From contig JAAUTZ010000004.1 of the NCBI GenBank assembly GCA_012031225.1, forward strand, positions 62,409 to 104,952: a stretch of 42,544 nucleotides of DNA, given 5' to 3'. A model generated the notes under the pieces. That model was not told where the DNA came from. It saw nothing but the letters and a program-made list of their open reading frames with translations, and did no database searches. Below, in pieces: positions 3-35,330 of this stretch (positions are counted from its first letter, which is position 1; every line of letters starts with the position of its first letter). A program made the position numbers and the translations under genes. The stretch comes from Chloroflexaceae bacterium. Lineage in GTDB: Bacteria; Chloroflexota; Chloroflexia; Chloroflexales; Chloroflexaceae.

Positions 3-2659
3 GATGATCGCATCACAGAAGAGGTTGAATTCCCGCACCTGTTCAATCCGGGTACAGGGACGAGCGTGGGTATCCAAGTCCCGCTGACAGTTGCGATTGG
101 TTCTGACCCGCGTGCGGTAGCACCGGGCGAACAGGCCAAACTGACGCTGGAAGTGAGCAACTTCTTGCCGCAGGAAGTGCGTGGCGTGCAGCTCGTCTAC
201 GACATTCAGCCGGGGGCCTACTACATCACCAACACGGCCAGCATGCCCACCGCCATCACCACCATGCCGCGCACTGATCAGCCCGCGCAAACTATCGCCT
301 GGACGTTTGATATATCCGGCACGCAAAGCCTCCGAGCACCGACCAAGCTGGCGTTTACGTTCACCATCTCGACGACGGCCACCAAACCAGATCGGGGTAC
401 CGCCACGCTGATTATTCCAGAGCGTGCGAATGTACCGAGCGAGTGTATCGGCAGCGTACTTGGTGGCACGCGGGTCAATATTCCGGCTGATGACAAAGTG
501 GTGGTGACAAAGCGGGTTGACCTTCCCGAAGAACGCTTCGCAGGTGATATTGCGTTGGTTGATCAGGGCGAGGAAGTCACCTTCCTAATCGAGATCGAGA
601 ACCGCAGCACCCGTGCGATCAATGGCTTTAGCTTGACCGACCAGCTCCCCGCGCATAGTGCCGAGAGCATCACCGCCGAAAATCCAGATGGATCAGCCCG
701 CTTCAATCTCCTACAGGATTCGATCACGCCTCCCCCAGCCGACATCGGCACGGAGGGCGGGGGCGCAATCTTCTGGCGCAACATCAACCTACCCGCGCTG
801 GATACCACCGTGCTGCAATATCGGGTAGCGGTAGGCGGGTTGGAATACTTCACCTACTGCAACGTTGCGGAAGGGATCCTTCCGGCTGGAGCGCAAGGCT
901 TGCAGGTAGATAATAGAGAAGCTACGCAGTGCATCAAAGTCAATCCTGAAATGGAGATGCTCAAGACGAGTAACAAAGAAGGGGCCCTCCCCGGTGAGGA
1001 GATCCGCTTTAGCCTACGCCTGCAAAACAATACCGGCATTACTCAAACCGTCGGGATCGCCGATGCGTTTGTGCCCAGCGAATTTGAGTTCCTGCGCGTG
1101 GACCCGAGCCAGACCTATGGCACCCCGCCACGCACCATTTCCCTCGATGATGGCCGAACCGTGTTGCAGTGGGACCAAGTGCCAATGCCACCGGGCGGGC
1201 GGCTCGAAGCGGCCTTCTTTGCGCGCATTCCGCCGGGCGAGTGTAGCACCGGGCGCGGTGCCTACACCAATCGTATGCTGATGTTGTATCGTTCGATCAT
1301 CAGCCCATCTACACCGCCGTATCTCGTCGTCCGCTCACCCGATACCAATTCAAAGGTGCAGTTCAAGTGTATCCGGCGCACGCTCGAATTTAACATTCGT
1401 GCCAACCAGACCAATCCGTCGCTGGAAACGGCATTCCCGTATCAGCTCGATATAAAGAATACGAATGTGATTGAGCCAGCCCGCAACGTGCGCGTGCAGC
1501 AGCTGCTGCCGCGTGGCTTCCGCTACGACAGCCCGTCGACTTCGGGCAACATGCAAGAACGCCCAACCGAAACAACGCTTCCCGATGGGCGCGTGCAACT
1601 GACATGGAACATTCCAGAGATTGCCCCCAATACCAGCTTCCGCATCCAATATCTGGCCCGGGCGGGGCAGAGCGTTGGCCCGCAAGTCACCGAGATGCGC
1701 GTGGTGCCAACCGAGGCCACATGGACAGCCGACTGCCCCGCCGCACGCACGCTCTGTGTAGCGGGTGATGACACGGTGAAATATGCAACCACTACTGTCA
1801 ATGTGCTGGCCCTGCTCACAGCTACCCCGAATCTGATCGTCCCTGAGGGCTGTCTGGATGTCGGTGAGCCTCTGCAATACGTCGTTTCGCTTGTCAATAC
1901 CGACTCATCCCGGGCCTACGCCAATACCACCGTCGCGCTCACGCTATCGCTCGGACTCCAGTATGTCGGCGTATTGACGGATACCGTGCCGACCCAGTAC
2001 GGCAGCTCGGAGCCAATGGCGAGACGGTGCTAACGTGGGAGAATTTGACCGTCGAGCGGCCCCGTTCTGGGCAGCAAATCCAACTCGACTTGGGCATCAG
2101 GCTGCAAGTGGGCGGCGTGCTAGGGCGGCTACCCACCAACGTCGAAGTGAATACCCCCGATGGACTCGTGCCCCTCAAAGAGGGCGAGGTTGACCCGAAC
2201 GTGAGCGTATGTGATGATACTGTGCAGAACCTGACCGTGCTGAAAGAGATCAACCCGCGCCGGGCCCAGCCGGGCGAGGAGTTTGTCTACCTAATCACGT
2301 TAGGCAATGACAATGCGGGTGCGGTGAATGTGACGAGCTTACGCGAGCAACTGCCCGCCAACTTCACGTTCGTTGAGATGATGCCCGAGTCCGGCATTAG
2401 CCAAGCCCCGACGATTAGCGACGGTCGGCTGGAGTGGCGGCGCATCCCTGTGCCACGCAAAGAGGGTGATGTGCCGGGCAGAACAGAACTCCGCTTCCGC
2501 GTGCGCGTAGAGCGCAGTGCCCAACTCGCTACGTACAGCAGCAACACCACCGTCACGGGGACAACCCCCACCGTCCCGGTCGAGTATATCGGACAGGATG
2601 TCCAGATCCGTGTTGCCTACGAGAATGAAATCTACTTGCCGCTGATTGTGCGGCGGTAG
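3..2659 (+). CDS. DUF11-repeat surface protein, 5'-partial, frameshifted
   Basis: The frame is open from the first bases of the window, so the true start lies upstream; the GTG at 66 is internal. About 885 residues are visible. They form at least six repeats of the DUF11/conserved-repeat type, beta-sandwich modules built around PGE(E/Q) followed by a V-x-N-x-x-x motif and an LP-x-x-(F/L) motif. These are typical of large secreted cell-surface or adhesive proteins. The frame is lost between about 2000 and 2016: the upstream frame stops at 2033, while the continuation (NGETVLTWENLTVERP) is read from about 2017 in the frame that ends at 2659. One missing base restores a continuous protein. The C-terminus ends in IYLPLIVRR, matching the tail of the protein at 34728-35330 and possibly a sorting signal. 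DUF11 assignment is firm; ligand and role are unknown. Confidence 0.8.
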
Positions 2660-32237: not shown

Positions 32238-32987
32238 TCACCGCACCACCACTGCCGCCGCAAGGGTTGCCAGCACCACTACCTCGCCGATCTCGCACAG
32301 TGCGCCGTAGGTATCGCCGGTCAGCCCACCCAGATCGCGGGTCCACCAGCGCGCGAGCCACCACGTCACCAGCCACACTAGCCCGCCTGCAAGCAACGCA
32401 ACCCCGCCCCCGATCAGGAGGGCGCAGGCGACTGTAGCGGCGGTGGTGATGATGAAGTGGCGCGGCTGAAGTTCGGCTTGGAAAGTGCGCCCCAGCCCGC
32501 CCTCGCGGGCCGGCGGGAACCAGTGAATGCCGTAGCTATCGGCCCAGCGGCCCCACAGCGGCGCAAGCAACACCGCCTGCCACCATTGCTCGCCCGCGCC
32601 TGCGAGCCACACGAATTTGAGCAGCAGCACCGCAACCAGTGCGAGCGTGCCCATCGCCCCAATCCGGCTATCCTGCATAATCTCCAGCTTGCGCTCACGC
32701 GGTCGCCAGCTCCACACGCCATCAAAGGTATCGCTCAGCCCGTCGAGGTGCAGCCCTCCCGTCAACACCGCCCACGCCACCACCAGCACCGCCGCCCGCC
32801 CCAGATCGCCCCAGAGCCAGCCCGCCACAACGCCCAGCGGCAACAGCACCACGCCGATGATTAGCCCGACGATGGGGAACCACGGGATTGAGCGCGGGAT
32901 GCTTTTCTCGTCCATCATGGGCAGAAACGGGATCGGGATGATCGTGAGAAACCGGATCGCCTCAAACAGGCTCAAGAGATTGCTCAT
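32238..32987 (-). CDS. cobS: Adenosylcobinamide-GDP ribazoletransferase (cobalamin synthase)
   Basis: CobS is the membrane enzyme that joins adenosylcobinamide-GDP to alpha-ribazole (or its phosphate) in the last steps of cobamide assembly. The 249-residue product contains the GGLHLDGLSDTFDGVWS motif with the catalytic acidic residues, QDSRIGAMGTLALV, and about six hydrophobic segments; length is normal. Its ATG overlaps the cobT stop by 4 bp. It is the last gene of the minus-strand operon. Confidence 0.93.
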   Translation of the reverse strand: MSNLLSLFEAIRFLTIIPIPFLPMMDEKSIPRSIPWFPIVGLIIGVVLLPLGVVAGWLWGDLGRAAVLVVAWAVLTGGLHLDGLSDTFDGVWSWRPRERKLEIMQDSRIGAMGTLALVAVLLLKFVWLAGAGEQWWQAVLLAPLWGRWADSYGIHWFPPAREGGLGRTFQAELQPRHFIITTAATVACALLIGGGVALLAGGLVWLVTWWLARWWTRDLGGLTGDTYGALCEIGEVVVLATLAAAVVVR

Positions 32988-34084
32988 GCAGTGCTTACTC
33001 CCGCCGCCTCAAAGGTGGCCATCGTGTGCAGCAGGCGTAGCGTGTGCTGGATCAGAGGCAGCGCAAGTGCCGCACCGCTGCCTTCGCCCAGCCGTAGCTC
33101 CAGCTGCAAGAGTGGGGCGGCGGCATTGTCCCCAGTTAGCCCTAGCTCGGCGAGGGCCAGTGCGTGGCCCGGCTCTGCCGAGCAGTGCGCGGCGATCAGG
33201 TGCGCGGGCAGCTGCGGAGCCAGCCGCGCCGCAACGAGGGCGGCGGCAGTGGTGATGTAGCCATCCAGCAGGATTGGGATGCGTTGCGCGGCTGCCGCGA
33301 GCATTGCCCCCACAAGCACCGCCAGTTCCAGCCCACCCACTTCTGCCAGCAACAGCAGTGCATCGCCGTCCCAGCGTTGCCCATCGCCCAGCCCCACGCG
33401 CCGCAATGCCTGCGCCACCAATGCCTGCTTGTGAGCGAGCCGCGCTGCATCTATGCCCGTGCCACGCCCGACAGTCTGGGTGGGGGGTGCGCCCGTGAGC
33501 GCACTTGTCAGGGTGGCGGCGGCAGTGGTGTTGCCAATGCCCATCTCGCCCACCAGCAGCATGTCCATACCGTCTGCGTGGGCCGCCTGCGCTAGGGTCA
33601 TCCCGGCTAGCACGGCGGCATGCGCTTCAGCCAACGTCATGGCTGGCTCAGCGGCGAGGTTGGCTGTGCCCCGCCGAATATGCAGGCGATGCAGATCGGG
33701 GTGATCGGGCAGATCACCGACGACACCCGCATCCACCACGATCAGGCGGGTATTGGTTGCGTGCGCCAAGACACTGATCGCCGCCCCGCCCGCCAGAAAG
33801 TTCAGCACCATTTGGGCCGTTACAGCTTGCGGGTAGGCACTCACGCCAGCCACCGCAATGCCGTGATCGGCGGCACACAGCAGGATCACGGGCTGCTGCA
33901 CCTGTGGCAGCGCGTGGGCTGTACTCCCCGCCAAGCGCACGAGGAGGTGTTCGAGTTGCCCCAAGCTGCCTTGCGGCTTGGTCAAATGATCGAGCCGCTG
34001 CTGCACCGCAATCATTGCAGGCCCATCAGCCGGGGCGATCTGAGCCGCACAAGCGCGGATCGGATCTGGGGTAGGGTTGGTCAT
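32984..34084 (-). CDS. cobT: Nicotinate-nucleotide--dimethylbenzimidazole phosphoribosyltransferase
   Basis: CobT activates the lower-ligand base, making alpha-ribazole phosphate from nicotinate mononucleotide and dimethylbenzimidazole. Visible motifs: LTKPQGSLGQLEHLL near the N-terminus, AADHGIAVAGVSAYPQAVT, GEMGIGNTTAAA, PILLDGYITTAAALVA, and HCSAEPGHALAL, which contains the catalytic-Glu region. It has 366 residues, the normal length. The gene overlaps cobC upstream and cobS downstream by 4 bp each, so translation of the three is coupled. Confidence 0.94.
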   Translation of the reverse strand: MTNPTPDPIRACAAQIAPADGPAMIAVQQRLDHLTKPQGSLGQLEHLLVRLAGSTAHALPQVQQPVILLCAADHGIAVAGVSAYPQAVTAQMVLNFLAGGAAISVLAHATNTRLIVVDAGVVGDLPDHPDLHRLHIRRGTANLAAEPAMTLAEAHAAVLAGMTLAQAAHADGMDMLLVGEMGIGNTTAAATLTSALTGAPPTQTVGRGTGIDAARLAHKQALVAQALRRVGLGDGQRWDGDALLLLAEVGGLELAVLVGAMLAAAAQRIPILLDGYITTAAALVAARLAPQLPAHLIAAHCSAEPGHALALAELGLTGDNAAAPLLQLELRLGEGSGAALALPLIQHTLRLLHTMATFEAAGVSTA

Positions 34085-34695
34085 AACAAACGGGGAACCT
34101 CATTCACAACACGGATGATCGGGCTACTTGCATACACATCAATCGCCGTGATGCTTGCTAAATCTATGCGCCACTGCCAATGCTGGGGAAGCGGCATTCC
34201 CGTCAGACTGCTCAGCACAATGCGGATCGGTGTAGCGTGGGTGACAATTAAGATGCGCCCACCCGCATGCTCACGCAATAAAGCGAGCCAGCCCTGCTGC
34301 ACCCGCGCCGCCACATCCGCCAACGACTCGCCCCCGCTGGCGCGTCCGTGCAGCGCATCCGCAAAACGCTGGTGGGCTTCGGTGGGGTAGCGTTGCAGCA
34401 CCTCGCGGTAGGTCAGCCCTTCCCATGTGCCGTGTGCGCTCTCGGCCCACGCCGGGTCAATCAGGGTTGGGACGGGCGCTTGGCGATTGGCAAGGATGGC
34501 GGCAGCAGTTGCCTGCGTGCGCTCGGTGGCGGTGGTCAGGGCCAGCGTAAACGGGATGCGCCGCAAGCGATGCGCGAGGGCCGCTTGCTGGCGTATGCCA
34601 TAGGCGGTAATTGGGCTATTGCTGTGGCTTTGGTAGCGTTGCTCGCGGTTATATTCGGTTTGCACATGGCGCACCAGCCAGATGCTCGTTCGCAC
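34081..34695 (-). CDS. cobC: Histidine phosphatase, probable alpha-ribazole phosphatase
   Basis: This 204-residue protein is a member of the histidine phosphatase (phosphoglycerate mutase) superfamily. By context it should dephosphorylate alpha-ribazole phosphate before or after CobS. The N-terminal phosphohistidine motif reads LVRHVQTEYN: His10 is present but the usual RHG glycine is valine. ATERTQATAAAI, WAESAHGTWEGLTYREV and VTHATPIRIVL (second His) complete the active site. It sits between the DUF4430-like gene (32-bp gap) and cobT (4-bp overlap). Assignment as CobC rests on the neighbours; other phosphatase roles are possible. Confidence 0.75.
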   Translation of the reverse strand: MRTSIWLVRHVQTEYNREQRYQSHSNSPITAYGIRQQAALAHRLRRIPFTLALTTATERTQATAAAILANRQAPVPTLIDPAWAESAHGTWEGLTYREVLQRYPTEAHQRFADALHGRASGGESLADVAARVQQGWLALLREHAGGRILIVTHATPIRIVLSSLTGMPLPQHWQWRIDLASITAIDVYASSPIIRVVNEVPRLL

Positions 34696-34727
34696 AGGGT
34701 CTCCTCGTTCAGGGTCTTGGGCTGCCG

Positions 34728-35330
34728 TCAGCGTACCACCAACGGCAGATATGCCCGATCCATACGCGGCGCAGGGGCGACGGTAGGCGTAGCCGTCGGC
34801 GTGCCAATCGGCGTAGCCGCCGGCGCTACGGTTGCAGTTGGCAACTCCGCGTTCGGGCAGATGTCGGCGAAGGCGATCACGGGCGGGGCAACATTTGTAT
34901 CACTCCACACCCAGCCATCTACATCACCCGCCCGCAGGGTGCGGCTGCTTGCACCCAGCCCCGAAAATTGCCACTGCTGCGCGTCGGCATTCTTCAGCCA
35001 GTAGCGCCAATAGGTGGGCGGATAGGCACACGCGCAGTTATCGGCAGGGCAGCCCTCTTGGCCAATCTTGCATACAAACTCGCCTAAGCCCGGATCATTC
35101 TGTGTTTCCAGTGCCAACTCGGACTGACGCAGCAGGTCAATCGCCCTGATCGTCTCAGTCGTAAAACTGACACAGCGCGTCGTGACGGTGCCATCACCGG
35201 ATACCACGACTACGCCTGCCTGCTGCACTGTCTGGCCATAGCCGCGTGCGGTCAGGCCTAGCCCTAGCAGCAGTGCGCCAAGGAGCAGCAGCCAGAGCGG
35301 GATGTGCAAGAGCTGCTTGGGCAACAGCAT
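34728..35330 (-). CDS. Secreted Cys-rich DUF4430-like protein with YLPLVVR tail
   Basis: The 200-residue product starts with a signal/anchor helix (about 10-28) and exports a small domain (about 38-160). Its ending GDVDGWVW, the YWRYWLKN segment, and an early TTETIRAIDLL helix resemble DUF4430, the domain related to the C-terminal beta domain of transcobalamin/intrinsic factor. Six cysteines (C53, C87, C94, C99, C101, C158) would suit disulfides or a ligand. A Pro/Thr/Ala linker (about 163-189) leads to the final AYLPLVVR, nearly the same tail as the DUF11 protein at the left end. The gene lies 10 bp after the permease gene and 32 bp before cobC. Cobamide binding is inferred from fold resemblance and operon only. 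Confidence 0.6.
   Translation of the reverse strand: MLLPKQLLHIPLWLLLLGALLLGLGLTARGYGQTVQQAGVVVVSGDGTVTTRCVSFTTETIRAIDLLRQSELALETQNDPGLGEFVCKIGQEGCPADNCACAYPPTYWRYWLKNADAQQWQFSGLGASSRTLRAGDVDGWVWSDTNVAPPVIAFADICPNAELPTATVAPAATPIGTPTATPTVAPAPRMDRAYLPLVVR

Follow-up and report, generated by a model that had tools for sequence, protein, structure and literature searches.

A short C-terminal tail without a transmembrane helix as a putative cell-surface sorting signal of exported Chloroflexota proteins

Introduction

Why do two unrelated exported proteins, encoded far apart in one stretch of a Chloroflexaceae genome, end in nearly the same few residues? The window analyzed here, i.e. the whole stretch of 42,544 nucleotides, codes for a Cys-rich secreted protein (P0001) ending in AYLPLVVR and for a DUF11 repeat protein ending in IYLPLIVRR, and the initial annotation raised the possibility of a sorting signal. 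A transmembrane (TM) helix is part of the signals recognized by sortases, exosortases, rhombosortases and myxosortases, whereas in type IX secretion a C25 sortase acts on a signal that is TM-less. The envelope of filamentous Chloroflexota is multilayered and in places outer-membrane-like, without BAM or LPS genes (PMC7332563, PMC13319060). The analysis presented below indicates that the tail very likely marks these proteins for the cell surface.

Two proteins of the window share a C-terminal tail

P0001 (34728-35330, minus strand) is a secreted protein of 200 amino acids, with a signal peptide, a Cys-rich domain that gives a weak, below-threshold match to the SCO2322 family, a Pro/Thr/Ala-rich linker leading from the folded domain to the tail (LPTATVAPAATPIGTPTATPTVAPAPRMDR, 34755-34847, minus strand) and the tail itself, AYLPLVVR followed by the stop codon (34728-34754, minus strand). 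Its direct translation ends in APRMDRAYLPLVVR, the last residues being RAYLPLVVR. The gene is located directly upstream of those for a CobC-like phosphatase, a CobT-type phosphoribosyltransferase and CobS (32238-34695, minus strand; Pfam PF00300, PF02277 and PF02654), the whole group spanning 32238-35330. These genes for cobamide lower-ligand assembly are genomic context and not sorting machinery, and P0001 may be a secreted corrinoid-related protein.

The DUF11 repeat protein is encoded on the plus strand in two frames that overlap out of register, an upstream one (3-2033; PF01345, 3.5e-17) and a downstream, tail-bearing one (2027-2659, here P0003), which matches TIGR01451 with 27.2 bits (cut-off 24) and PF01345 with 22.8 bits, slightly below the cut-off. 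The frame changes at 2020-2040, where ...SSEPMARRC and a stop are followed by VLTWENLTV..., and both frames probably belong to one long protein split by a frameshift or an assembly error near 2027-2033. The gene starts upstream of the window (L051), with a signal-peptide-like N-terminus (MRVLNQPIRITLLLLALITFAAGG). The tail, IYLPLIVRR plus the stop codon (2630-2659, plus strand), closes a translation ending in YENEIYLPLIVRR, with EIYLPLIVRR as its last residues. In both proteins the motif is therefore the exact C-terminus and neither has a C-terminal TM helix, as originally annotated. When all six frames of the window were searched with a loose motif, five further matches were obtained, none of them ending a credible gene. 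An AlphaFold2 model of P0003 built from the single sequence had a pLDDT of 41 and decides nothing on the structure of the tail.

The motif is already catalogued. NCBIfam release 20 names a "YLP-box putative sorting motif", identical to our tail in sequence and position, in two models, NF053834 (ultrashort_CTERM) and NF050076 (sort_motif_YLP); these entries provide a name only. P0003 passes the first (12.1 bits, cut-off 10) and falls below the second (11.8 bits, cut-off 15). There is no row for P0001 with either model, ten-residue models being readily dropped by HMMER filters, and AYLPLVVR fits the tail consensus; with E values of up to 10, NF050076 matched 22 of 47 tailed proteins. No paper on YLPL, the YLP-box or a Chloroflexota C-terminal sorting motif was found in the literature searched. 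What is new here is the exchange of tail and membrane anchor, the near-exclusion of tail and TM helix, a variant ending in K, C25 orthologues that have lost Y, and the link with C25 peptidases.

The tail is associated with signal peptides and nearly excludes TM helices

In the 4.2 Mb genome that contains the window, Y-L-P-[LF]-[VILM]-x-R gave 31 matches, whereas the reversed pattern used as a control gave none. In stretches taken from four genomes we counted 97 tailed genes, grouped in 66 homology clusters. Considering the tailed genes with both ends visible, and calling signal peptides by a home-made heuristic, a signal-peptide-like start was present in 76 of 90, versus 376 of 1288 other genes (p=1e-25). 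The motif was also recovered without being presupposed, by comparing the C-terminal 14 residues of signal-peptide genes with those of other genes for all 22,783 spaced triplets that occurred: YxPL, YLP and LPL came out on top in the former (best p 2.6e-26), in genome stretches that had been picked around motif matches, which inflates the abundance of the motif and does not select for its association with signal peptides. The enrichment that the initial annotation had proposed to look for is thus present in the direct comparison, and the triplet count agrees with it.

A C-terminal TM stretch was found in only one of the 97 tailed genes versus 83 of 376 untailed signal-peptide genes (p 2e-8), so that tail and C-terminal helix are nearly exclusive. 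The 97 tails follow the consensus [VIL]-[YFH]-L-P-[LF]-[VI]-x-[RK], in which L and P were fixed by the search itself, and R is often found two places ahead of Y. No more than 2 residues come after the basic one in 83 of them (overall range 0-6). The tail is less strict than first thought: K may replace R and Y may be lost, the near-invariant elements being P, its hydrophobic flanks and the basic residue. Since 28 of the 97 tails end exactly at the basic residue and the others go on, a strict free carboxylate is not a general rule.

Tandem paralogous secreted genes, each with a YLP tail, were observed in G011 (five consecutive genes in L101, 12708-19853, minus strand; also in L093). Elsewhere (L251, 863-5054, minus strand), adjoining signal-peptide proteins ending in GGNALLLPIELGTASAQEPTP and GGNALLLPLVVR lie beside a sortase-like gene, and these endings are a possible variant of the tail in which L replaces Y.

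Tail and membrane anchor alternate in the P0001 family

The secreted domain of P0001 is common in its own order, where homologues show 35-51% identity. About 22 homologous copies continue through a Pro/Thr linker into a C-terminal hydrophobic helix and a basic end (e.g. SYLVFGALLAAVLGAIAVALRRRT). Four copies, from the genome of the window and from G091, G218 and G195, are tailed instead, with the ends RAYLPLVVR, RRVYLPLVSR(+8), i.e. RRVYLPLVSRTSFYTNYR, GRVYVPLIR and WRVYVPLVR. In the last three genomes, which belong to one genus, TM-anchored and tailed paralogues exist side by side. Members of this family bear either a TM anchor or a YLP tail, so that the tail substitutes for the anchor. Among the matches of tailed proteins are, in addition, choice-of-anchor families and models of M36 peptidases whose named members are myxosortase- or rhombosortase-dependent. 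The anchor swap, the exclusion of TM helices and these choice-of-anchor matches are the pattern expected of interchangeable surface anchors.

Distribution of the tail

The pattern R-[VIM]-Y-L-P-[LF]-[VIM]-x-R-stop was present in 96 stretches of 84,980 species genomes. Among the 80 of these 96 matches listed, nearly all convincing cases were from Chloroflexota, including Chloroploca, Viridilinea, Oscillochloris, Roseiflexus, Thermoflexus, Ardenticatenaceae, Caldilineaceae, Anaerolineales and further Chloroflexi metagenome-assembled genomes. Most of the listed matches labelled as other phyla did not end a long exported frame: the Nostoc match had no frame, the Sphingomonadales and Proteobacteria matches corresponded to one protein without a signal peptide, and the remaining ones had no frame of 20 residues or merely a short one. 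Together with the 31 matches in the genome of the window, these results agree with the initial annotation, in which similar tails were described as common on exported proteins of filamentous Chloroflexota.

In the phylum itself, high numbers of tails are found in the order of our organism and in scattered other families, and many lineages with small genomes do not exceed the controls. Some genomes, such as Chloroflexus-like ones, have few tails of the strict pattern. The C25 peptidases of one genus (g6) end in YLPAIIK, a K variant, and a search with a K-ended pattern gave 5 matches each in G107 and G031, versus 0 and 2 in the controls.

Candidate machinery and C25 peptidases

Tailed genomes have virtually no exosortase or Omp85. 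Among 18 YLP-positive genomes, a full exosortase match was obtained in G011 only and a sub-cut-off one in G189, and no Omp85 homologue was present in any of the 15 genomes analyzed. From these 18 and 15 genomes, exosortase and BAM were rejected as the machinery, the latter in consonance with published data (PMC7332563). All 18 YLP-positive genomes have at least two PF04203 sortases, and many YLP-poor genomes have sortases as well; no sortase clade tracks the tail, a contrast that is weakened by the K-ended tails of some genomes labelled negative there, such as those of g6, which had counted as YLP-negative. Canonical LPATSTG/LPETSTG proteins with a TM helix adjoin one sortase type. A sortase subfamily is not supported as the machinery, given that sortases are found in tailed and untailed genomes and have an LPATSTG-TM partner of their own.

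The genes neighboring tails in four genomes likewise revealed no machinery candidate, the recurrent ones being mainly LuxR/MalT-like regulators and response regulators, besides an ABC-transporter-like family and a single family of small secreted proteins. Tails are often near large LuxR/MalT-like regulators or response regulators (L061-L150 neighborhoods), a hint of regulated surface proteins. No dedicated machinery for the tail was identified in these searches.

Peptidase_C25 is the one family that follows the tail. In 24 C25 orthologues from many genera the catalytic domain ends in LGDP and is followed by a variable stretch and the tail. All 24 close with P amid hydrophobic residues, nearly always with R or K as the final element (VALPLVQR, VNVPIVQR, IFLPVVGR, YLPAIIK, YLPLVRAE); Y can be lost, and P and usually the basic residue are retained. 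The tail comes after a bare catalytic domain or after added Ig-like sequence and, being preserved behind variable linkers, is kept at the C-terminus whatever precedes it. Full-length C25 genes were present in 18 of 20 YLP-high genomes versus 25 of 281 others (p 2.5e-15, a value inflated by shared ancestry), and outside the order of our organism in 3 of 5 versus 12 of 266 (p 0.0013). Because nearly all C25 proteins carry the tail themselves, they may be cargo rather than machinery. Gingipains cleave after Arg or Lys; cleavage after the tail Arg was rejected as a general rule, in view of the 28 tails that end at that residue. In one family (f2), a PF04203 sortase gene comes immediately after the YLP-tailed C25 gene (L287, 1168-4038 and 146-1054; L316; L299), and in G067 (L278) the gene that follows has TP repeats.

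Comparison with known systems and alternative explanations

The explanation that we favor, and consider probable from the sequence patterns described, is that the tail is a TM-less C-terminal signal for surface sorting or retention, with a putative receptor. The protein would be exported by means of its N-terminal signal peptide and then held or handed over at the cell envelope by the short tail, at the C-terminus or within some six residues of it, which would do the job of the C-terminal membrane anchor of homologues. A putative envelope receptor or enzyme would read the P-centred hydrophobic core and the basic residue. The tail may serve to dock the protein to an envelope layer, or the protein may be cut on the N-terminal side of the tail. 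This surface-signal explanation is favored by the association with signal peptides, the occurrence in unrelated families, the conservation in C25 peptidases, the anchor swap and the restriction to Chloroflexota. Against it weigh the 0-6 residues beyond the basic one, by which a free carboxylate could not be what is recognized in all tails, the neighboring genes, which revealed no machinery, the home-made calling of signal peptides and the scarcity of strict tails in genomes such as the Chloroflexus-like ones. General features of sorting signals are also found, namely a shared tail on unrelated exported proteins, placed at a fixed distance from their C-terminus, and homologues with an alternative anchor, and the initial proposal is supported in particular by the signal-peptide enrichment and the anchor swap. 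As to the target, tomograms of Roseiflexus showed no outer-membrane-like layer (PMC7332563); the tail is present in this genus, so such a layer alone is probably not the target.

The tail resembles PEP-CTERM, GlyGly-CTERM, MYXO-CTERM and LPXTG in being a C-terminal tag shared by numerous unrelated exported proteins (dozens in each genome), and in its choice-of-anchor architecture and trailing basic residue. In all of these, however, a TM helix separates the motif from the basic tail, while the YLP-box has none, and the exosortase of the PEP-CTERM system is missing from nearly all YLP-tailed genomes. With the beta-signal of BAM it shares being a short hydrophobic C-terminal motif with an aromatic residue, but YLP-tailed proteins are not beta-barrels and Omp85 is absent, as indicated above. 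With the type IX C-terminal domains and PorU of Bacteroidota it has in common a TM-less C-terminal signal on unrelated exported proteins along with a C25 peptidase bearing the signal, although the type IX signal is a beta-sandwich domain and the YLP-box has seven residues, and the lack of Omp85 in the 15 genomes analyzed implies that there is no BAM-built outer membrane.

A specific version of the surface-signal explanation is that YLP-box proteins have as their sortase a secreted C25-family peptidase (clan CD, gingipain/PorU family), which would cleave them at the tail or ahead of it and attach them to a surface polymer, in the manner of PorU with the TM-less C-terminal domains of type IX secretion. 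Such a PorU-like transpeptidase would recognize the YLP-box and fix dozens of proteins to a multilayered envelope devoid of a BAM-built outer membrane. We regard this as unlikely, and a PorU-like processing enzyme as a speculative lead, despite the co-occurrence of C25 with YLP-high genomes, also outside the order, the tails of nearly all C25 proteins and the resemblance between the TM-less YLP-box and the TM-less type IX signal, a C25 substrate; the parallel with PorU, a C25 enzyme bearing the signal it processes, is suggestive. C25 peptidases could simply be common tail-bearing cargo, and no single orthologue is common to all, the genome of the window and G067 being without the type present in most of the order. 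Besides, G009 and G126 are YLP-high without C25, whereas G061, G141 and G290 have tail-less C25 proteins and few YLP matches, and in the many tails that end exactly at R a cut after that residue is impossible.

The other alternatives seem less probable still. A structural element, in which the tail would form the final beta strand of the preceding domain or cap it, and would recur because Ig-like domains end many of these proteins, would fit the beta-prone tail and the beta-rich final domains of many tailed proteins; we find it very unlikely, as tails are also found behind long Pro/Thr linkers (P0001, L118, L194), catalytic C25 domains and propellers, as it is the C-terminus and not a domain that sets their position and sequence, and as a TM anchor replaces the tail in other members of the P0001 family. 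The linker of P0001, the differing domains that precede the tail in C25 proteins and the anchor swap thus tell against the final-strand objection that the initial annotation had foreseen. That the tail could be an LPXTG-like signal for the PF04203 sortases of tailed genomes is hard to sustain: the presence of these enzymes in every YLP-positive genome tested and the adjoining C25 and sortase genes of the f2 family speak for it, but no TM helix follows the YLP motif, sortases also exist in many YLP-poor genomes, no clade of them follows the tail (with the reservation made above about K-ended tails) and one sortase type has LPATSTG/LPETSTG-TM proteins beside it. We give equally little credit to a quality-control or stability tail, read for instance by a protease of periplasmic type that is specific for C-termini. 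In its favor, PDZ-containing proteases are known to bind short hydrophobic C-termini; such ligands need a fixed free C-terminus, however, while here 0-6 residues follow the basic residue, and conservation behind a variable linker speaks against a degron.

Concluding remarks

The YLP tail would thus represent an ultrashort, TM-less kind of C-terminal sorting signal in a phylum without BAM. It is carried by dozens of exported proteins in each genome and is interchangeable with a membrane anchor, which makes it a direct handle on how proteins reach, and stay in, the layers of this envelope. If it is indeed a sorting signal, C-terminal sorting signals would extend to a class without a membrane helix; were the C25 transpeptidase version also true, it would be the smallest known C-terminal sorting signal, and PorU-type sorting would exist outside type IX secretion.
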